A stretch of DNA of 64,000 nt from Alcanivoracaceae bacterium (GTDB lineage: Bacteria > Pseudomonadota > Gammaproteobacteria > Pseudomonadales > Alcanivoracaceae), in the NCBI GenBank assembly GCA_029212745.1, contig JARGOL010000004.1, positions 186,001 through 250,000 of the forward strand. The letters run 5' to 3'. A program made the position numbers and the translations under genes. Of this stretch, positions 24,111-32,428 are shown one piece after another (the first letter of the stretch is position 1; every line of letters begins with the position of its first letter). The notes beneath the pieces are model-generated. The model was not told the origin of the DNA and did no database searches. It saw only the letters and a list, made by a program, of their open reading frames with translations.

Positions 24111-24656
24111 ATGGCCCTGCCTTCCACGCTGTACACGTTCCGCATCGACCTGGCCGACCAGGATCGCGGCCACTACGACCAGCTCAAGCTGAAGCTGCCG
24201 TGCCATCCCTCGGAAACGGTGGAGCGGCTGGTAGTGCGGGCACTGGCCTGGTGCCTGTTCGACAGCCCGGATCTCAAGGCCGGCCCGGACCTGTCTGACC
24301 ACAGTGAATCACCGCTGTACGAACAGGACGCCAGTGGCGAGATCCGCCACCGCATCGAGCTGGGCGAGCCTGACCCGCAACGGATCAAGCGCGCCAGTAA
24401 CCGCGGCACGGCGGTGACCGTGATCACCTATACGCCCAGCGCCGCCACCTGGTGGAAGAAACAGGAAAACGCCCTGCGCGCGTTTGCCGGCGTGGAGGTA
24501 CTTGCCATGCCCGCCGATGCGGTCAGCGCGCTGGCAGCGGAGCTGCCCCGACAGGTGCACTGGCAGGTAATGGTCAGTGAGCGCACCCTGTTTGTCAGTG
24601 ACGAAACGGGCGACAGCACCGAGATCCAGGTGACAGGCTTGCAGGAACGGCGTTAA
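24111..24656 (+). CDS. yaeQ: YaeQ family protein
   Basis: A 181-residue protein with the YaeQ pattern throughout: M-A-L-x-x-T-x-Y-x-F at the start, the D-R-G-H-Y-D-Q-L segment, E-R-L-V-V-R-A-L-A-W-C-L (about 39-50), and I-E-L-G-E-P-D-P-Q-R-I-K-R-A (about 82-95). YaeQ has a PD-(D/E)XK nuclease-like fold; in E. coli it was first noted as a suppressor of RfaH loss, but its role is not established. The stop codon overlaps the stop codon of the convergent gene at 24653 by four bases. Confidence 0.93.
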   Translation: MALPSTLYTFRIDLADQDRGHYDQLKLKLPCHPSETVERLVVRALAWCLFDSPDLKAGPDLSDHSESPLYEQDASGEIRHRIELGEPDPQRIKRASNRGTAVTVITYTPSAATWWKKQENALRAFAGVEVLAMPADAVSALAAELPRQVHWQVMVSERTLFVSDETGDSTEIQVTGLQERR

Positions 24657-25519
24657 ACCGGTGCCAGTTCAGCCTGCCTTGAAAAGTCGTTAAATCGCAA
24701 TGGTGTATTTTTCTCAAGATAACTCCTGGTATCGCCAATCGACGAAAAACCACCGTCGAAAACAGGCGCACCATCAACATCTATGCGCAGCCACACACGG
24801 TCTGCTTCTATTTTTATCTCCGCAATATAGCGTCGAATCTTTCCGCCATCTTCTCTGTCCAGAATTGTGGAGAGCGCCACCGAGGGCAATTTGCCCTCAC
24901 TATCAAACAGCGCAACTACAGTTCTTAGCTCGGCCAGCAATTCTGCCAATCGCACGCCGCGCTCTGCACTAACGGAATCACGAAAAGTCAGGACTTTTCC
25001 GGAACGCACCTCAATATGCCGGCTCTCCGTCTTCAACAAATGGTAAATCACAAGATTGCTGAAAAGCGCCCGGACACGATCGGGCTCGTTTGAACTCAAT
25101 ACATACCGATCTGCAAATTCAGCGTCATCGCATTCAACAACCGGCGCCCTCTCCTCCAAGGTCCGGTCAAGGACTCCTCGGGGTCTAAGCATAAATTCGG
25201 GAACCGAAGAACTGAGATCATGAGCCAGAATGGTGGAGTGCTTTCCGTACTTCGAATACCAGACAACAGATGAGCGCCAGAACACGCCAATACGAGGCTC
25301 GGACTCTACAGACAGATAGAACCGGTGACTTCTACCCACCCAGTCGATTCGACGCAGGCTTTCAAAGCAGCCCTGACAAAGCCATTTACGGAAGATCTCT
25401 TCGGGAACCTTGACCATACCTTCCCTTATGAAGACTTCCTGCCGATCCCGATAGGTGGCATACATATAACAAAAGGTGATAACGATTATCATCAACCCAA
25501 AGATGGTATCCCAATCCAA
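24653..25519 (-). CDS. Hypothetical membrane-anchored protein
   Basis: No family recognised. The product has one N-terminal membrane helix (F-G-L-M-I-I-V-I-T-F-C-Y-M-Y), then a soluble mixed alpha/beta part of about 250 residues with no clear motif. The TTG at 25519 is the best start, with GGAG seven bases upstream; the frame stays open to another TTG at 25609 without a binding site. The gene is clearly richer in A and T than its neighbours, which suggests recent acquisition. It sits alone between yaeQ, whose end it overlaps by four bases, and the divergent ATP-grasp operon. Confidence 0.65.
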   Translation of the reverse strand: MDWDTIFGLMIIVITFCYMYATYRDRQEVFIREGMVKVPEEIFRKWLCQGCFESLRRIDWVGRSHRFYLSVESEPRIGVFWRSSVVWYSKYGKHSTILAHDLSSSVPEFMLRPRGVLDRTLEERAPVVECDDAEFADRYVLSSNEPDRVRALFSNLVIYHLLKTESRHIEVRSGKVLTFRDSVSAERGVRLAELLAELRTVVALFDSEGKLPSVALSTILDREDGGKIRRYIAEIKIEADRVWLRIDVDGAPVFDGGFSSIGDTRSYLEKNTPLRFNDFSRQAELAPV

Positions 25520-25696
25520 ACCCCTGCTCCTGGCGAACTGTTGCCCGGCTACCAGTCTACCCCAGGAGAGCGCTAGCCGGAGGACCGACTGTTTTCTCCC
25601 GGCCACCAAATAATCGTAGCGCTTCCGCCTCCGGTTGCCCTACATTTGCGTCTCCGGGGCCATGGTCATGGCCCCGCGCACACGCACGAGAGCGCC

Positions 25697-27181
25697 ATGA
25701 CGCACGTCATTCTTGTTGTTGAGGACCGCAAGGACTGGTCCGCCTATTACCCGTCACAGAACCTGATGACCGCTCGGGAGTATCTCGACGGGGCGCCATC
25801 GCCAGCCAGCGGCCGCGTGCAGGTGATCAACCTGTGCCGCAACTACCGCTACCTCGGGCCCGGCTATTACTGTTCCCTGCTCGCCGAGGCGCGTGGCCAC
25901 AAGGTGATCCCCAGCGTACGCACGGTGAATGACCTGTCGCGCAAGGCGCTCTACCGCCTGCAGCTGGAGGCCTTTGACGGCGACCTGGACAAGGTGATGC
26001 GCAAGCATCACAAGGACAGCGAGCGCCTGACGCTCAATCTCTATTTTGGCCAGACCGAAATTACCGGCCTCGCCGAACTGGCCCGGCAGATCTTTGACCA
26101 GTTGCCCTGCCCGGTGCTGCAGGTCACGCTGCGACGGCGCGAACACTGGAGCATTGAATCGGTCAAGGCCATCGGCATCAACAACCTCAAGGACTCCGAG
26201 GAAGACCGTTTTGCCGCGGCGCTGGAGGCGTTCAATACCCGTATCTGGCGCAAGCCCGGACGGCGACGCAAATACCGCTACGATCTCGCCATGCTGGTGA
26301 ATCCGGAAGAAGCGCTGCCGCCCTCCAACGGGCGCGCCCTGAAAAAATTTATTCGCGCCGGCAAGGACCTGGGCATCAATGTGGAGCTGGTGGGTCGCGA
26401 GGACTACACGCGCCTGGCGGAATACGATGCACTGTTCATTCGGGAAACCACCGCACTGGATCATCACACCTACCAGTTCGCCCGCAAGGCGGAACAGGAA
26501 GGCATGGTGGTCATGGATGATCCGGCGTCCATCCTGCGCTGCACCAACAAGATCTACTTTGCCGAGCTGATGCAGGCACACAAGGTACCGACACCGGGCA
26601 CGCGTTTCCTGTACCGCGACAGTGAGCCGGACCTGGATGCCTTGATAGACGCGCTGGGTCTGCCCATCGTGCTGAAAATTCCCGACGGGTCTTTCTCACG
26701 CGGGATCAGCAAGGCGGAAACCCGCGAGGCATTGCACAGGGAACTGGCCGGCTATTTCAAGCAGAGTGCCGTGGTGCTGGCGCAGGAATACCTGTACACG
26801 GACTTCGACTGGCGTATCGGCATTCTCAACAACCGCCCCCTGTTTGCCTGCCAATACATGATGAGCAAGGGGCACTGGCAGATCTATCACCACCAGGAAG
26901 GCGGCAAGACCGACAGCGGTGACTTCGCCACGCTGCCGATCCAGCAGGTGCCCTCACGGGTGCTTCGCACGGCGATGAAAGCGGCGCGCCCCATGGGTGA
27001 TGGCCTGTATGGCGTCGACCTCAAACAGAGCGGCGAACGCCTCGCCGTGGTGGAGGTCAATGACAACCCCAACATTGATGCCGGCATCGAGGATCGCTGG
27101 CTCGGCGATGACCTCTACCGCCAGGTGATGCTGGAATTCCTGCGCCGCATGGAAGCACGACGCCTTGGCCTCGCGCTATGA
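25697..27181 (+). CDS. RimK-like ATP-grasp amide ligase with N-terminal RLAN domain
   Basis: A 494-residue protein. The N-terminal 150 or so residues (from V-I-L-V-V-E-D-R-K-D-W through L-C-R-N-Y-R-Y-L-G-P-G-Y-Y-C-S-L-L) are the RimK-like ATP-grasp N-terminal domain. An ATP-grasp domain follows: P-I-V-L-K-I-P-D-G-S-F-S-R-G near 320, the D-F-D-W-R-I-G-I segment, and the metal-binding V-V-E-V-N-D-N-P-N-I-D near 455. The family ligates amino acids to a carboxylate using ATP (RimK adds glutamates to ribosomal protein S6). The gene overlaps the next by ATGA and begins a three-gene operon. The substrate is unknown. Confidence 0.9.
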   Translation: MTHVILVVEDRKDWSAYYPSQNLMTAREYLDGAPSPASGRVQVINLCRNYRYLGPGYYCSLLAEARGHKVIPSVRTVNDLSRKALYRLQLEAFDGDLDKVMRKHHKDSERLTLNLYFGQTEITGLAELARQIFDQLPCPVLQVTLRRREHWSIESVKAIGINNLKDSEEDRFAAALEAFNTRIWRKPGRRRKYRYDLAMLVNPEEALPPSNGRALKKFIRAGKDLGINVELVGREDYTRLAEYDALFIRETTALDHHTYQFARKAEQEGMVVMDDPASILRCTNKIYFAELMQAHKVPTPGTRFLYRDSEPDLDALIDALGLPIVLKIPDGSFSRGISKAETREALHRELAGYFKQSAVVLAQEYLYTDFDWRIGILNNRPLFACQYMMSKGHWQIYHHQEGGKTDSGDFATLPIQQVPSRVLRTAMKAARPMGDGLYGVDLKQSGERLAVVEVNDNPNIDAGIEDRWLGDDLYRQVMLEFLRRMEARRLGLAL

Positions 27182-28251
27182 TGGCGGGCATGGATACCGA
27201 CCTGTTTGCCGACAGTTATGCGGGCGCGCGCCAGTGCTTCCTCAGCGCCGTCAGCCGCGCCAGCGCGTCAATGCCGGCCATTGTGCAGGACACCTTTCCC
27301 TGTCCGGCCACCGGACCGGACGGCGATTCCCTGTTCACCGACATTGCCTGGCTGGGTCCACACACCGCTGAAAAAGTACTGGTGCTGCAGTCCGCCACCC
27401 ATGGCGTGGAAGGCTATGCCGGCAGCGCCATCCAGTGCCAGTGGCTGCAGAACCTGACCACCTTGCCAGCGGATACGGCGGTGCTGCTCGTGCATGCCCT
27501 CAATCCCTGGGGCATGGCGTGGCACCGGCGCTGCGACCAGGACGGCATCGACCTGAACCGCAACTTCATCGATTTCAGCCAGCCGCTGCCCAGCAACCCC
27601 GGCTATCAACAGCTGCGGGATGTGCTGTTCGACAGCGATGCTGACACGCGCCGCGCCCACCTGGAGGCCTACCTCGCGGCACACGGCCGTGAGGCCCTGG
27701 AAGTGGCACTCAGCGGCGGCCAGTACCTGGATCCACACGGGCCGTTCTTTGGCGGCTCGCAGCCGGCCCATGCCAACCGCCTGGTACATGACTGGATCAA
27801 CCGCTTTGCCCTGTCCGGCAAGCAGCTGGCCGTGATCGACCTGCATACCGGCCTGGGCCCGTTCGGCGAGGGCGAAATCATCTGTGACCACGCGCCGGAC
27901 TCAGCCGGCGTCATCACCGCGCGACGCTGGTACGGCGACGAGGTGGCGCTGCCCCTTGAAGGGACCTCCAGCTCGGTGCCGAAACTGGGCCTGATTGATT
28001 TCGCCTGGCACGCCATCATGGCCAACAACAGCTGCTTCGTGACGCTGGAATTCGGCACCTTCGCCACCGATGCATTGTTTGAGGTGCTGCTTGAGGACCA
28101 CCGGCAATGGGCATCCGGCCAGCGTGACGCTGCCTGCGTGGCCGCCATGCGCCATCACTTCTGCCCGAATGACCGTCACTGGCGCGACCAGGTCCTGCGC
28201 CGCGGCGCAGACGTCATAGCCCGTGCGCTGGACGGCCTGGCCGAATCATGA
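27178..28251 (+). CDS. DUF2817 / M14-like zinc carboxypeptidase
   Basis: A 357-residue protein with the zinc carboxypeptidase layout: His75 and Glu78 in T-H-G-V-E-G, an L-N-R-N-F segment (126-130) matching the substrate-binding N-R pair, third ligand His223 in D-L-H-T-G-L-G, and catalytic Glu291 in L-E-F-G-T-F. This matches DUF2817, related to M14 carboxypeptidases and succinylglutamate desuccinylase. There is no signal peptide, so it acts in the cytoplasm. Its ATG overlaps the end of the ATP-grasp gene and its end overlaps the GNAT-C39 gene, implying a joint task such as removing what the ligase adds. Confidence 0.88.
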   Translation: MMAGMDTDLFADSYAGARQCFLSAVSRASASMPAIVQDTFPCPATGPDGDSLFTDIAWLGPHTAEKVLVLQSATHGVEGYAGSAIQCQWLQNLTTLPADTAVLLVHALNPWGMAWHRRCDQDGIDLNRNFIDFSQPLPSNPGYQQLRDVLFDSDADTRRAHLEAYLAAHGREALEVALSGGQYLDPHGPFFGGSQPAHANRLVHDWINRFALSGKQLAVIDLHTGLGPFGEGEIICDHAPDSAGVITARRWYGDEVALPLEGTSSSVPKLGLIDFAWHAIMANNSCFVTLEFGTFATDALFEVLLEDHRQWASGQRDAACVAAMRHHFCPNDRHWRDQVLRRGADVIARALDGLAES

Positions 28252-29372
28252 ACACAGCGGCCGCCCCGTTCCAGTTGCGCCCCTCCCGGCCGGACGACCT
28301 GGAGGCCCTGGATGCCCTGGAACAACGATGCTTCACCATCGACAGACTCAGCCGGCGAAGCCTGCGGCGCTGGCTGGCCAGCGACCATGCGGCACTGGTT
28401 GTTGCCGAACGCGACCGACAACTGCTCGGCTATGTGCTGGTCATCCTGCAGCGCGGTACGCGGCTGGCGCGGCTGTATTCCATCGCCGTTGACCAGGCAA
28501 GCCGCGGCACAGGGCTGGGGCTTGCGCTGTTAGAGGCGGCTGAAGACGCTGCCCTTGGTGCCGGACGCGTGGACATGCGCCTGGAAGTGCGGCCAGACAA
28601 TGCAGCGGCCATCCGCCTGTACGAGCAGCAGGGATACCGCCGTTTCGGTGCGTACGACGACTACTACGAAGACCACTCGCCGGCGCTGCGCTACCAGAAA
28701 CGTATCCGCCAGTTCGACCCCAGCCACTGGCAGCACGCCATGCCCTGGTACCGGCAGACGACGGAATTCACCTGCGGCCCTGCCAGCCTGATGATGGCGC
28801 TGCGTGCGCTGGACAGCGACTATCGCTTCAACCGCGAGGAAGAACTGCGCCTCTGGCGCGAGGCCACCACCATCTACATGACCTCGGGCCATGGCGGCTG
28901 CCATCCGCTGGGCCTGGCGCTGGCGGCGGTCCGGCGCGGATTTTCTGCCGAAGTGTGGATCAGTCACCAGCAGCCGCTTTTCGTCGACAGTGTTCGCAAT
29001 GACGAAAAACGGGCGGTGATCGAAACCGTGCACAGTGACTTTACCCGGGCCGCACATGAGGCAAACATCCCGGTCCATTACCGGGAGGTCAGCCAGCATG
29101 ACCTGGACACCGCCCTGAAGAGCGGCGGGATCCCGGTGGTGTTGATATCCACCTGGCAAATGGACCGCAAGCGCGCCCCGCACTGGGTCGTGGTTTCAGC
29201 CATTGATGATCAGTTCATCTACTTGCATGACCCGGACCCGGACGCCGAGTTCCAGACCGAACTGGACTGCCAGTACCTGCCTATTGCCCGCGCCGATTTC
29301 GAACGCATGGCCCGCTTCGGGAAGGACCGGCTGCGAACCGTTCTGATCATCCGCGCACGCAGTCAACCCTGA
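28248..29372 (+). CDS. GNAT acetyltransferase fused to a C39-like cysteine peptidase domain
   Basis: A 374-residue two-domain protein. Residues about 8-150 are a GNAT fold with the acetyl-CoA loop Q-A-S-R-G-T-G-L-G (83-91) and Y-E-Q-Q-G-Y-R-R-F near its end. Residues about 165-370 are a C39-like peptidase: Cys176 in T-E-F-T-C-G-P-A-S, His312 in P-H-W-V-V-V, Asp328 in L-H-D-P-D. The combination is known next to RLAN ATP-grasp genes in Pseudomonas relatives and has been grouped with amidoligase systems. The ATGA overlap makes it the third gene of the operon. Without an adjacent ABC exporter, a classic bacteriocin leader peptidase role is unlikely. Confidence 0.9.
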   Translation: MNTAAAPFQLRPSRPDDLEALDALEQRCFTIDRLSRRSLRRWLASDHAALVVAERDRQLLGYVLVILQRGTRLARLYSIAVDQASRGTGLGLALLEAAEDAALGAGRVDMRLEVRPDNAAAIRLYEQQGYRRFGAYDDYYEDHSPALRYQKRIRQFDPSHWQHAMPWYRQTTEFTCGPASLMMALRALDSDYRFNREEELRLWREATTIYMTSGHGGCHPLGLALAAVRRGFSAEVWISHQQPLFVDSVRNDEKRAVIETVHSDFTRAAHEANIPVHYREVSQHDLDTALKSGGIPVVLISTWQMDRKRAPHWVVVSAIDDQFIYLHDPDPDAEFQTELDCQYLPIARADFERMARFGKDRLRTVLIIRARSQP

Positions 29373-29591
29373 CGCACAGCGCCTTCGACCCCGAGATCAC
29401 CGAAGTCACCGCCCGTTGCGCCGCTCATACTGATGACGCAATGCCGGTCTACGCAGAATGGACCAAGTTCCTCATCATTGCCGTCAAACGGCCGTACAAC
29501 GGCGCAAAATGTGTGCCCGGGTGGCCGTAATTGCATGGCCGATTGCCCTATAGTCGGAGCGTCAATGCACACTTTCATTGCAGGTCTGGCC

Positions 29592-30956
29592 ATGATGACA
29601 CCAATAAAAAACACCCTCGCCACCCTCCCTCGTTTCCTGCTGCTGACCGCCATCGCGGTGCTGCTGGCAGGCTGTGATTTTGAAGTCAGCCCCACAGACG
29701 GTGGCTATGTGTTCTCCGATATCCAGTCGCCGGTGGGCATCAGCCAGTGCCGTCGTACCTCCGGAACCTGTGTGGTCCGTGACTACGAAGACAATGGCAG
29801 CCTGTTCGCAGAGGTGGATGTTCGCCTCACCGCCATCGCCGACCCGGGGTACCGCTTCTCCCACTGGCAAGGCTGTGACAGCAGCGAACGGCTGCACTGC
29901 AAGATACACCTGGACGGCGATATCTATATCAGGGCTCACTTCGAGCCAATCCAGCCCGCGGCAGCCAGCGGCAATAACCAGAGCCTGCGTTTTGTTGCCC
30001 TGGGCGACTTCGGCACCGGGGGTGATGGCCAGAGGGCAGTGGCGGATGCCATCCACAGCGAATGCGAAAAGCGCGGTGGCTGCGATTTTGCCATCGGCCT
30101 GGGCGATAACATCTATTCGGACGCCGCGCCGAAAGATGTAGACGACGCCCTTTTTGCCAGCCGCTTCGAAGCACCGTTCAGCGCCATCGACTTCCCCTTC
30201 TACCTGACCCTTGGCAACCACGACAACGACTGGTTGATTGATGGTCTTGGCAGCTTTAATGCCGCCGGCGAAATTCAGGTGAATTACAGCAGCAACAGCG
30301 ACAAGTGGGTCATGCCAGACCGCTACTACATGCACGAGCAACCACAGCAGGCGAACCAACCACTGGCATCCTTTTTTGCCCTGGATTCGAATCCCCTGAT
30401 GGCGCCCCTTGAAATCGTGCCAGAGTACTGGATGCTCAAGCACAAGATCGAGATGGGCGACTGGATCGACCAGGCCATCGCATCAGCACGCGGCACCTGG
30501 AAGATTGCCTACGCGCATCACCCGTACATCTCCAATGGCATCCACGGCAATGCCGGCAACTACGAAGGACTGCCCCCGGTCTGGCCGCTGCTGTCACCGT
30601 CCGGGGAAATCTACCGCAAATGGCTGGAAAAGCATGTCTGCGGCAAGGTCGACGTCTTTTTTGCCGGGCACGACCATGAAGTACAGCTGCTGCGCTCCGT
30701 GCCCGAGTGTGGCAACACCCTGCTGGTGGTATCCGGCGCCGCCGCCAAAACGCGGGAGTTTGCCGACGCCAGCCGCAACCCGACCTGGTACCAGAAAGAC
30801 AACACCCTTGGGTTTGTGATCGGCGAAATCAGCGGTGACAGCCTGACCATGACCCCTTTCCAGGTACAGTTGCCCACGGTGCCGGGCGCACCGCCAACGG
30901 TATCCACCCCGCCTGCGGGCCAGATACCGGTCTTCCAGCGCCGGCAGCTTGACTGA
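29592..30956 (+). CDS. Calcineurin-like metallophosphatase lipoprotein
   Basis: A 454-residue lipoprotein: the hydrophobic N-terminus ends in lipobox L-L-A-G-C, so it is anchored to the envelope. A short region of about 100 residues resembles a divergent InlB B-repeat (G-Y-R-F-S-H-W-Q-G-C, then Y-I-R-A-H-F-E-P). The catalytic domain follows, with G-D-F-G-T-G-G, G-L-G-D-N-I-Y, G-N-H-D-N-D, A-H-H-P-Y and G-H-D-H-E. This is the dinuclear-metal motif set of the purple acid phosphatase/TRAP type. A phosphomonoesterase role outside the cytoplasm is likely. CAGG before the ATG at 29592 supports this start. Confidence 0.87.
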   Translation: MMTPIKNTLATLPRFLLLTAIAVLLAGCDFEVSPTDGGYVFSDIQSPVGISQCRRTSGTCVVRDYEDNGSLFAEVDVRLTAIADPGYRFSHWQGCDSSERLHCKIHLDGDIYIRAHFEPIQPAAASGNNQSLRFVALGDFGTGGDGQRAVADAIHSECEKRGGCDFAIGLGDNIYSDAAPKDVDDALFASRFEAPFSAIDFPFYLTLGNHDNDWLIDGLGSFNAAGEIQVNYSSNSDKWVMPDRYYMHEQPQQANQPLASFFALDSNPLMAPLEIVPEYWMLKHKIEMGDWIDQAIASARGTWKIAYAHHPYISNGIHGNAGNYEGLPPVWPLLSPSGEIYRKWLEKHVCGKVDVFFAGHDHEVQLLRSVPECGNTLLVVSGAAAKTREFADASRNPTWYQKDNTLGFVIGEISGDSLTMTPFQVQLPTVPGAPPTVSTPPAGQIPVFQRRQLD

Positions 30957-31102: not shown

Positions 31103-32428
31103 ATGCTTATTATTCCCGTACAGGACCGTGTGGAATGGCGCCGCCCGCCCCTGCTGGTCCTTGCCCTCGTTCTGCTGAACAGTGTCATCTTCTTTGCCTG
31201 CAGCCAGCACGACGATGACATCCATACCGCACTGGAAAGACAGCCCATCAGTGAGCTGGCCCGGTACGAGCACGCGCTTGCCCGTGAGCATCTCATCGAC
31301 ACCAGTGACATGCCGGTGCATGAGATCGAACAGATGGGTGCAGAGGCCGCCTTCCACCAGGTCATGTATGACCGCAGTTTTGACCAACGGGTTGTTACCT
31401 ACTGGGCAAACCATCCGGTGGATGAAAACTGGCGTGCCTTGCGCGAGGCGTTTGTGGAGCAGCGTGACCAGCTCACCTGGCTGGACTGGGGCTTCATACC
31501 GGCGCAACCAGAACTGGCAGATGCACTGGCCAGCATGTTCCTGCATGGCGACATCTTCCACCTGTTCGGCAACATGCTCTTCCTCCTGCTGTTCGGCCTT
31601 CCGCTGGAGCATCACTGGGGCAGTCGCCGCCTGCTGCTCATCTATATGCTTGCCGGTTTCGCGGCCACGGGACTGCACTGGGCTGTGGACCCCGCCAGCA
31701 ACATTCCGGGCATTGGTGCCTCCGGCGCCATTGCCGGGCTGATGGGATGCTACGCCGCTACCTATGGCCTGCGGCGCATCGAATTCTTTGCCACCGTCGG
31801 TTTCTGGTTTGGCAGCTTCCGCGCACCGGCGTTGATGATGTTCCCGGTATGGCTCGGCTATGAGCTGGTCCAGAATCTTCTCAGCGACAGCAACATTAAT
31901 TACATGGCCCATGCAGGTGGCCTGCTCGGCGGCCTGGCGGTTACTTTTATCCTCAGGCACGGCTGGGCGCCGGACGAGGTGGCCGAGACGGTCGCCGTCC
32001 AGGATGAGGACAGTGGTCCGGCCCATGCAGACATCCACCGGCTAATGGAAGAACTGCGCTTCCGTGACGCCCATGCCGTGGCCAGCCAGCGCCTGAGGAT
32101 GAGGCCGGATGATCTGTCGTTGTGGCTACTGCGGCTGGATAACGCGGCACGAATTGGCAGCGACGCGCTTGACCAGTGTCTCAAGGATGCGCTGGCATTA
32201 CTGAAAACACCGCCGTTCCCTGACCAGCTGGTGTCCGAGGTGATCAGCGAACACGGCCGTCTGGGTGGCAACCGCCAAAAGCTGCCGCCACCGTTCAGGT
32301 TACTGGAGGCGGAGTGGCTGGCCCGCCAGCAGAAACACCAGGCGGCCCTGGCGCTGGCAACCGATCTCGCGAGTCGCTGGCAGCACCCCAGACTGGCGCG
32401 CCTGGTGTCACAATTGTCAGGCCAGTGA
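31103..32428 (+). CDS. Rhomboid family intramembrane serine protease
   Basis: A 441-residue polytopic membrane protease. The catalytic dyad is Ser207 in G-I-G-A-S-G-A-I-A-G and His270 in Y-M-A-H-A-G-G-L-L-G-G. The upstream H-G-D-I-F-H-L-F-G-N motif (His148, His153, Asn157) is the conserved rhomboid helix. A large insert of about 95 soluble residues sits between the first helix and the core. After the core about 150 residues of soluble helical tail may mediate protein contacts. The M-L-I-I-P-V start is typical of bacterial rhomboids, although no strong binding site is visible. Its last 12 bases overlap the convergent gene. Confidence 0.9.
   Translation: MLIIPVQDRVEWRRPPLLVLALVLLNSVIFFACSQHDDDIHTALERQPISELARYEHALAREHLIDTSDMPVHEIEQMGAEAAFHQVMYDRSFDQRVVTYWANHPVDENWRALREAFVEQRDQLTWLDWGFIPAQPELADALASMFLHGDIFHLFGNMLFLLLFGLPLEHHWGSRRLLLIYMLAGFAATGLHWAVDPASNIPGIGASGAIAGLMGCYAATYGLRRIEFFATVGFWFGSFRAPALMMFPVWLGYELVQNLLSDSNINYMAHAGGLLGGLAVTFILRHGWAPDEVAETVAVQDEDSGPAHADIHRLMEELRFRDAHAVASQRLRMRPDDLSLWLLRLDNAARIGSDALDQCLKDALALLKTPPFPDQLVSEVISEHGRLGGNRQKLPPPFRLLEAEWLARQQKHQAALALATDLASRWQHPRLARLVSQLSGQ

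Follow-up and report, generated by a model that had tools for sequence, protein, structure and literature searches.

An operon of an RLAN ligase, an M14-type carboxypeptidase and a GNAT-peptidase fusion as a candidate pathway for making, capping and unmaking a small peptide

What might a ligase, a carboxypeptidase and an acetyltransferase fused to a peptidase accomplish together when their genes overlap? This question is raised by an operon at positions 25697-29372 of a 64,000-nucleotide stretch of DNA from an Alcanivoracaceae bacterium (contig JARGOL010000004.1), hereafter called the window, which belongs to a genome of 3.3 Mb that is 99% complete. An initial annotation, made from the sequence alone, had described there three plus-strand genes joined by ATGA overlaps, and its coordinates, strand and overlaps all proved correct (Table 1). 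The first encodes an RLAN-type, RimK-like ATP-grasp ligase, the second a DUF2817 protein, and the third a GNAT domain fused to a C39-like peptidase (DUF3335; the fusion is referred to below as GNAT-C39). The set looks like a real, uncharacterized pathway that makes, caps and undoes its product, most likely a small peptide, because many distant bacteria carry these genes together. We tentatively propose, as a possible rather than a probable reading, that the operon serves to build and break down a short, N-acetylated peptide metabolite of glutamate type, that is, an acidic one. Iyer et al. (2009) reportedly described an RLAN ligase side by side with GNAT-DUF3335; to this neighbourhood DUF2817 is added here. 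No description of the three-gene set was found among the titles and beginnings of abstracts listed, most subscription papers lying outside this coverage, and no paper giving the substrate of an RLAN ligase was found in the literature searched.

The association of these genes was assessed in 229 genomes of the same class as the window genome. RLAN was present in 50 of them (about a fifth) and DUF3335 in 34, counted at E below 1e-70; 38 genomes had a match at E ≤ 0.001, four of which were weak and partial and were dropped. With a single exception (G154), the genomes with DUF3335 also had RLAN, and this co-occurrence in 33 genomes corresponds to a Fisher p of 4e-26. The two were adjacent by coordinates in 30 of the 33, and in four of these DUF2817 stood between the two or next to them. 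In the remaining three genomes (G060, G199 and G208) they were on different contigs, near contig ends in the latter two. Because of this p value and this adjacency, the ligase and the GNAT-peptidase belong together and their pairing is not due to chance. DUF2817 gave a match at E ≤ 0.001 in 22 genomes, of which nine were full length (E below 1e-70, including L061) and 13 were partial and dropped. Four of the nine (the window genome, G033, G094 and G160) have the pair, and DUF2817 adjoins it in all four. Found at the locus in only 4 of the 33 genomes with RLAN and DUF3335, DUF2817 is ruled out as a core component and is an accessory of the pair. Conservation of the gene set, which the initial annotation had put up for checking across genomes, is supported; the co-occurrence is strong for the ligase/GNAT-peptidase pair (33 of the 50 RLAN genomes) and weak for DUF2817.

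In a wider scan, named genomes were searched with DUF2817, and profiles of the three proteins were then applied to the best 80 of at least 584 confirmed stretches. GNAT-C39 was present in 29 of these 80 loci, from Gamma- and Zetaproteobacteria, and 25 of the 29 also had the ligase. The genes stood in four arrangements. The ligase is divergent in 17 loci; the genes are collinear, as in the window, in four; DUF2817 points towards a GNAT-C39/ligase pair on the opposite strand in four others, all of them from Zetaproteobacteria; and the last four have no ligase within the stretch. RLAN is encoded elsewhere in three of the genomes with this last arrangement (two of them Alcanivoracaceae), and none was matched in L094, whose stretch is cut just before DUF2817. 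In the same three genomes yaeQ, which also neighbours the operon in the window, precedes DUF2817-GNAT-C39. Named hosts include Alcanivorax, Ketobacter, Methylophaga, Methylomicrobium, Thiothrix, Hydrogenovibrio, Litorivivens and Mariprofundus. The remaining 51 loci, many from Alphaproteobacteria, had neither partner in the stretch, some of these stretches being short. No fixed fourth gene recurs in most of the 29 loci with the system, and neither does a transporter, regulator or target gene. DUF155 (PF02582, the RMND1/Sif2 family) is a loose associate, being present within 1.5 kb in 5 of the 29 loci; in the class survey it was found in 31 of the 229 genomes, 16 of which had RLAN (versus 50 of 229 overall; Fisher p 7.5e-5), and it was not found in the window's genome. 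It was also seen beside or near the ligase system in distant lineages (L095:10195-11019; the flanks of L089, L092, L098 and L100; G094:C22:17439; G101:C158:10727).

A subgroup of DUF2817 travels with this system. In a tree of 92 rows, all 33 system-linked DUF2817 proteins fell into one clade of 35 rows (support 99/98), the other two being L163, on a long branch, and L133, from genomes that gave neither RLAN nor DUF3335. The 59 rows of the GNAT-C39 tree include four from Zetaproteobacteria; these lie inside a 27-row group otherwise devoid of DUF2817 (100/98) and are separated from the remaining rows that have DUF2817. Because they sit apart in this way, the plain reading of the GNAT-C39 tree alone is that DUF2817 would have joined the pair a second time, with its own gene order, in Zetaproteobacteria. 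The ligase tree gave Mariprofundus no resolved position (81/0) and separated the Thiothrix ligase (L108) from the remaining ligases that come with DUF2817. An approximately unbiased test rejected a single GNAT-C39 clade "with DUF2817", also when Mariprofundus was left out; the group had been named post hoc and branches are long, and the p values were not used.

Seven residues mark the system-linked DUF2817 clade. Among 28 of its rows, D237, D274, H238 and L272 were found in all and K269, Y275 and W277 in 27. The corresponding counts in 22 other rows, which include L133 and L163, were 1 (D237), 4 (D274), 13 (H238), 8 (L272), 5 (K269), 4 (Y275) and 11 (W277). Five of the seven stand shortly before the catalytic glutamate, a region where carboxypeptidase A holds S1' residues. 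The signature is confounded with descent: L133, which is in the clade but whose genome lacks the partner genes, has all seven.

What kind of enzymes does the operon encode? The initial annotation had named an RLAN-type RimK-like ATP-grasp ligase, an M14-like DUF2817 protein with complete catalytic residues and a GNAT/C39-like fusion with a full Cys-His-Asp triad, and all three descriptions were borne out by family models and conserved residues and, for the first two proteins, by modelled folds; the catalytic roles given below to these residues are those of their families. A few rows in the sets of relatives used for residue counts are pieces of one gene. The ligase scored above the cut-offs of PF14401 (25 bits) and PF08443 (21 bits). 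Of eight ATP-grasp positions compared in 78 ligases, seven are invariant bar gaps: K285 is kept in 77, K327, D371 and R373 in 76, D441 in 72, and E453 and N455 in 70. The exception is E364, which is Glu in 69 (Ala in five, Gln in two, gaps in two). The structural model gave VIA matches to LysX 3vpd (Z 27.8, model residues 196-487), ArgX (27.4), LysX/ArgX 5k2m (27.3) and RimK (27.1), which amounts to a tie; these matches span residues 195-488, and the next relatives are D-Ala-D-Ala ligases (Z about 24). None of the structural matches listed extends over the RLAN part (about residues 1-194). By sequence, the best match with a solved structure is RimK. As judged by sequence and model, then, the ligase is of the RimK/LysX/ArgX kind, and it probably joins amino acids. 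More specific identities were rejected: the scores stayed below the cut-offs for the S6 glutamate ligase RimK (NF007764, 45.4 versus 331 bits; TIGR00768, 77.6 versus 143.4), LysX (TIGR02144, 63.4 versus 275.6) and N-acetylglutaminylglutamine synthetase (TIGR03103, 27.2 versus 569). An RLAN ligase with 54% identity is present in a Pseudomonas aeruginosa plasmid record (L199:5911-7500), with no GNAT-C39 annotated within 6 kb; an annotated glutamate/aspartate transporter and a gamma-glutamyltransferase lie a few genes off.

The second protein matched its family model PF10994 with 321.6 bits (cut-off 23). In 97 distinct relatives, H75 is kept in 96, E78 in 95, R118 in 96, H223 in 95 and E291 in 94; by analogy with M14 enzymes, H75, E78 and H223 are presumably the zinc ligands and E291 the catalytic residue. 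The Asn-Arg pair, which in M14 enzymes binds the C-terminal carboxylate, is invariant (N127 and R128, 97 of 97). VIA aligned 259 residues of the model with 2c1c at 2.6 Å (Z 23.9), and all 50 VIA rows listed are carboxypeptidases of the A/B/T/U type; the Foldseek list also includes rows of the aspartoacylase family and of glutaminyl cyclase. A sequence search for solved relatives gave only weak matches (MpaA, E 0.014; best profile row, E 0.0049), and the AstE/AspA model PF24827 matched partially, over positions 3-66 of its 192, with 29.7 bits (cut-off 25). Its modelled fold, together with the conserved zinc ligands, Asn-Arg pair and catalytic glutamate, leads us to predict with confidence that DUF2817 is an M14 metallocarboxypeptidase. 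It has the full fold and catalytic residues of the M14 carboxypeptidases A, B, O and T, but only 10-15% identity to them. The metallopeptidase that the initial annotation saw as an eraser thus has a true carboxypeptidase fold in the model; it is not a standing part of the locus. The nearest NCBIfam model, that of the murein tripeptide amidase MpaA (NF007897), was rejected as an identity, its score of 18.8 bits falling short of the cut-off of 157. DUF2817 matched no phage protein family in PHROG, and the ligase and the GNAT matched general PHROGs only. The highest-scoring DUF2817 gene of the class survey (422 bits; L061, G107:C1:709620-710651) has one in-frame TAG. Adjoining pairs of DUF2817 genes occur, in stretches that hold no ligase, in L129, L131, L144 and L152 (Candidatus Odyssella and other Alphaproteobacteria).

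In the third protein, the DUF3335 domain scored far above the cut-off of PF11814 (25 bits) and carries a Cys-His-Asp triad. Q170, C176 and H312 are kept in all of 60 relatives; position 328 is occupied by Asp in 54 and by Glu in the other six. The acetyltransferase part passes the curated cut-off of Acetyltransf_1 (PF00583). It is RimI-like by sequence, a class that acetylates alpha-amino groups; RimI itself (TIGR01575) was rejected, the score lying just under the cut-off of 86.4 bits. For none of the three proteins does any NCBIfam model pass its cut-off. The GNAT-C39 profile found no viral contig, and PADLOC, which covers anti-phage defence, gave no match for the three proteins or for the open reading frame at 24653-25609.

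If the enzymes are of these kinds, which amino acid is joined? An indirect pointer came from the surroundings of RLAN in all 17 genomes of the survey without DUF3335. Nine of them have a compact second operon encoding a C39-like peptidase without GNAT, an RLAN ligase, a GCS2-family ligase (PF04107) and a protein of the N-formylglutamate amidohydrolase (FGase) family (PF05013), as identified by Pfam in L170 and by profile in the others. G216 has the ligase and GCS2, G115 and G114 (at a contig end) have the peptidase and the ligase, G151 has a broken ligase with remains of GNAT-C39, and in G116 the ligase stood alone in the 9 kb read. Thus, besides the 33 RLAN genomes with DUF3335, 11 more of the 50 have another C39-like peptidase beside the ligase. 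In the ligase tree, those of the second type group in a separate clade (six rows, 100/100). Like that of the window, this operon combines an RLAN ligase with a C39-like peptidase and a zinc-dependent amidohydrolase, but it has GCS2 in place of GNAT and the FGase family in place of DUF2817; relatives of FGase were found in none of the 29 loci of the first type. Characterized members of the GCS2 and FGase families act on glutamate, and we lean towards regarding the second operon as an indirect pointer to glutamate chemistry and a small glutamate-containing product. It is the main, if indirect, basis on which we infer glutamate as a substrate, beside the kinship to RimK and LysX.

In the pathway that we propose, an amino group of the initial amino acid or peptide would be acetylated by the GNAT domain, and the RLAN ligase would use ATP to activate a carboxylate and extend it by an acidic amino acid. 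Removal of the C-terminal residue would fall to the M14 carboxypeptidase, and the C39-type cysteine peptidase would cut or transfer another amide bond. The scheme builds on the fold classes, the intact active sites, the recurring gene set and the DUF2817 subgroup associated with the system; the acetyl cap, the order of the steps, the small-molecule product and its physiological role are its conjectural parts. The residue that DUF2817 removes is probably the one that the ligase adds, which would offer a direct handle on the substrate. If the scheme is true, an acidic-peptide metabolite would be widespread in bacteria, along with dedicated enzymes to synthesize, cap and remove it.

The nearest working counterpart is the mammalian N-acetylaspartylglutamate cycle, in which NAT8L is a GNAT and glutamate carboxypeptidase II belongs to another metallopeptidase family than M14; unlike the present system, that cycle has no C39 domain and no RLAN domain. 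According to two papers (PMC8836185, PMC7907349), N-acetylaspartylglutamate is formed from N-acetylaspartate and glutamate by synthetases including RimK homologues, NAT8L makes the precursor and zinc glutamate carboxypeptidases split the product. The cycle (NAT8L, RIMKLA/RIMKLB, glutamate carboxypeptidase II) thus combines an acetyltransferase, a glutamate-adding RimK-like ligase and a removing zinc carboxypeptidase. A bacterial precedent for a RimK-like ligase with its own eraser protease is provided by RimK and RimB of Pseudomonas; as described in PMC11957791 and PMC12239564, RimK polyglutamylates RpsF and RimB takes the tail off. There, however, no GNAT takes part, and RimK lacks the RLAN domain and is a separate gene in the present genome. 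Given these precedents, with RimK and RimI proper encoded elsewhere in the genome and no LysW found in it (see below), we favour a short acidic N-acetylated peptide that the two peptidases would turn over. A broader and more doubtful idea is that the N-acetylaspartylglutamate cycle has a counterpart in bacteria. A single RLAN ligase family would have found two operon solutions (a GNAT cap with an M14 eraser, or a GCS2-family second ligase with an eraser of the N-formylglutamate amidohydrolase type), each with a papain-like peptidase; on more than one occasion, zinc hydrolases would have been enlisted to break the same type of glutamyl amide.

Several observations weigh against the proposal of an acidic peptide that is made and unmade. 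The absence of DUF2817 from 29 of the 33 genomes with RLAN and DUF3335 indicates that the eraser is dispensable. Its co-occurrence at the genome level is weak (Fisher p 0.11 with RLAN, 0.027 with RLAN and DUF3335), so that the case for DUF2817 rests on adjacency. In the alphaproteobacterium BAL199 (G235), whose locus is one of the 51 without partners, DUF2817 is apart from the GNAT-C39 genes, one of which is beside a ligase, indicating that DUF2817 and the pair can live apart. The stretch S-N-L-H-R-G-G of RimK is not kept in RLAN ligases, which have H-W-Q-I there, nearer to LysX, and glutamate therefore cannot be read from the ligase sequence. Finally, a GNAT without peptidase stands beside the ligase in G177, G040 and G171 (by Pfam in the first two; L176:5645-6103, L177:5663-6160, L184:7483-7980); of the two, the GNAT may stand closer to the core.

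We considered the possibility, which the initial annotation had also named, that the target is a protein rather than a metabolite, the ligase extending a protein C-terminus that DUF2817 trims, with the GNAT and cysteine peptidase working on that protein as well, much like RimK and RimB. The RimK/RimB precedent, the rank of RimK as best solved match by sequence and the RimI-like GNAT all speak for it. Yet RimK and RimI proper are encoded separately in this genome (RimK, 233 bits, C17:257453, outside the window; RimI, 112 bits, C20), so the operon hardly serves housekeeping ribosome modification; no candidate target gene recurs beside the system, and the second operon has partners of small-molecule type. 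We regard protein-tail modification as rather unlikely. The related LysX/ArgX pathway with the carrier LysW, which shares the ligase fold and supplied the best VIA rows, was rejected: LysW (TIGR01206) had no match in this genome, while it was found in 4 of 14 control genomes, and the present ligase has the extra RLAN domain. A link to methylofuran (PMC8141765), considered since several hosts are methylotrophs, was dropped because hosts such as Mariprofundus and Alcanivorax are not known to be.

In a peptide-scavenging scenario, the peptidases would break imported or recycled peptides, for instance those of murein, and the resulting fragments would be re-used or detoxified by the ligase and the GNAT. 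That MpaA is the nearest NCBIfam model of DUF2817 and D-Ala-D-Ala ligases the next structural relatives of the ligase would fit, but the MpaA score is far below its cut-off and the loci share no recurrent gene for murein or transport, which makes scavenging an unlikely explanation. DUF2817 might also be a passenger in an operon whose pathway consists of the ligase and GNAT-peptidase. Its absence from most genomes with the pair, the clade members without partners in L133 and L163, and the separate genes of BAL199 are what this would predict; it appears improbable in view of the four arrangements in two classes, the tree evidence for a second joining and the residue signature. Still more improbable is a ribosomal peptide natural product, with the ligase modifying a small precursor that the peptidases process. 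ATP-grasp ligases, GNATs and C39 peptidases do occur in such clusters, but no short precursor (open reading frame of ≥25 amino acids) recurs across lineages in the 1.5-kb flanks of the window operon and the 29 loci, and no exporter recurs at the loci.

Table 1. Features of the operon in the window, with the second type of RLAN operon for comparison
Feature	Location	Strand	Evidence
RLAN/RimK-like ATP-grasp ligase, 494 amino acids	25697..27181	+	PF14401 180.2 bits, PF08443 35.3 bits; model pLDDT 80.9; best VIA match LysX 3vpd
RLAN domain, residues 26-174	25772..26218	+	PF14401 stretch; same place in genome search, C17:211772-212218
RimK-like ATP-grasp domain, residues 284-461	26546..27079	+	PF08443 stretch; ATP-grasp residues kept in 78 relatives
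DUF2817, predicted M14-type metallocarboxypeptidase, 357 amino acids	27178..28251	+	PF10994; model pLDDT 96.0; VIA; residues
GNAT fused to C39-like cysteine peptidase, 374 amino acids	28248..29372	+	PF00583 62 bits, PF11814 312.6 bits
GNAT domain, RimI-like, residues 20-130	28305..28637	+	PF00583 stretch; TIGR01575 82.4 bits
DUF3335 peptidase domain, residues 165-368, triad C176/H312/D328	28740..29351	+	PF11814 stretch; triad kept
ATGA overlap, ligase stop/DUF2817 start	27178..27181	+	sequence
ATGA overlap, DUF2817 stop/GNAT-C39 start	28248..28251	+	sequence
Second RLAN operon, tightly packed	L170:4888-9002; also L171, L173, L174, L175, L182, L185, L186, L193

For the ligase, a start at the ATG at 25697 is favoured, relatives aligning there; the frame is open up to a TTG at 25646. 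Between 24500 and 30000, one promoter-like site was found versus 1.7 expected, and nine terminator-like sites versus 4.1 expected (standard deviation 2.2), the two on the plus strand being intragenic; neither count was used as evidence. An open reading frame of 318 amino acids on the minus strand (24653-25609), between yaeQ and the operon, had no match in Pfam, NCBIfam (E ≤ 0.01) or PADLOC. Further downstream, at 31103-32428 on the plus strand, lies a rhomboid protease with a long C-terminal extension, for which a rhombosortase model gave 26 bits, below its cut-off of 84. Immediately 3' of the operon, a calcineurin-like phosphoesterase with a weak InlB B-repeat-like match is encoded on the plus strand at 29433-30956.

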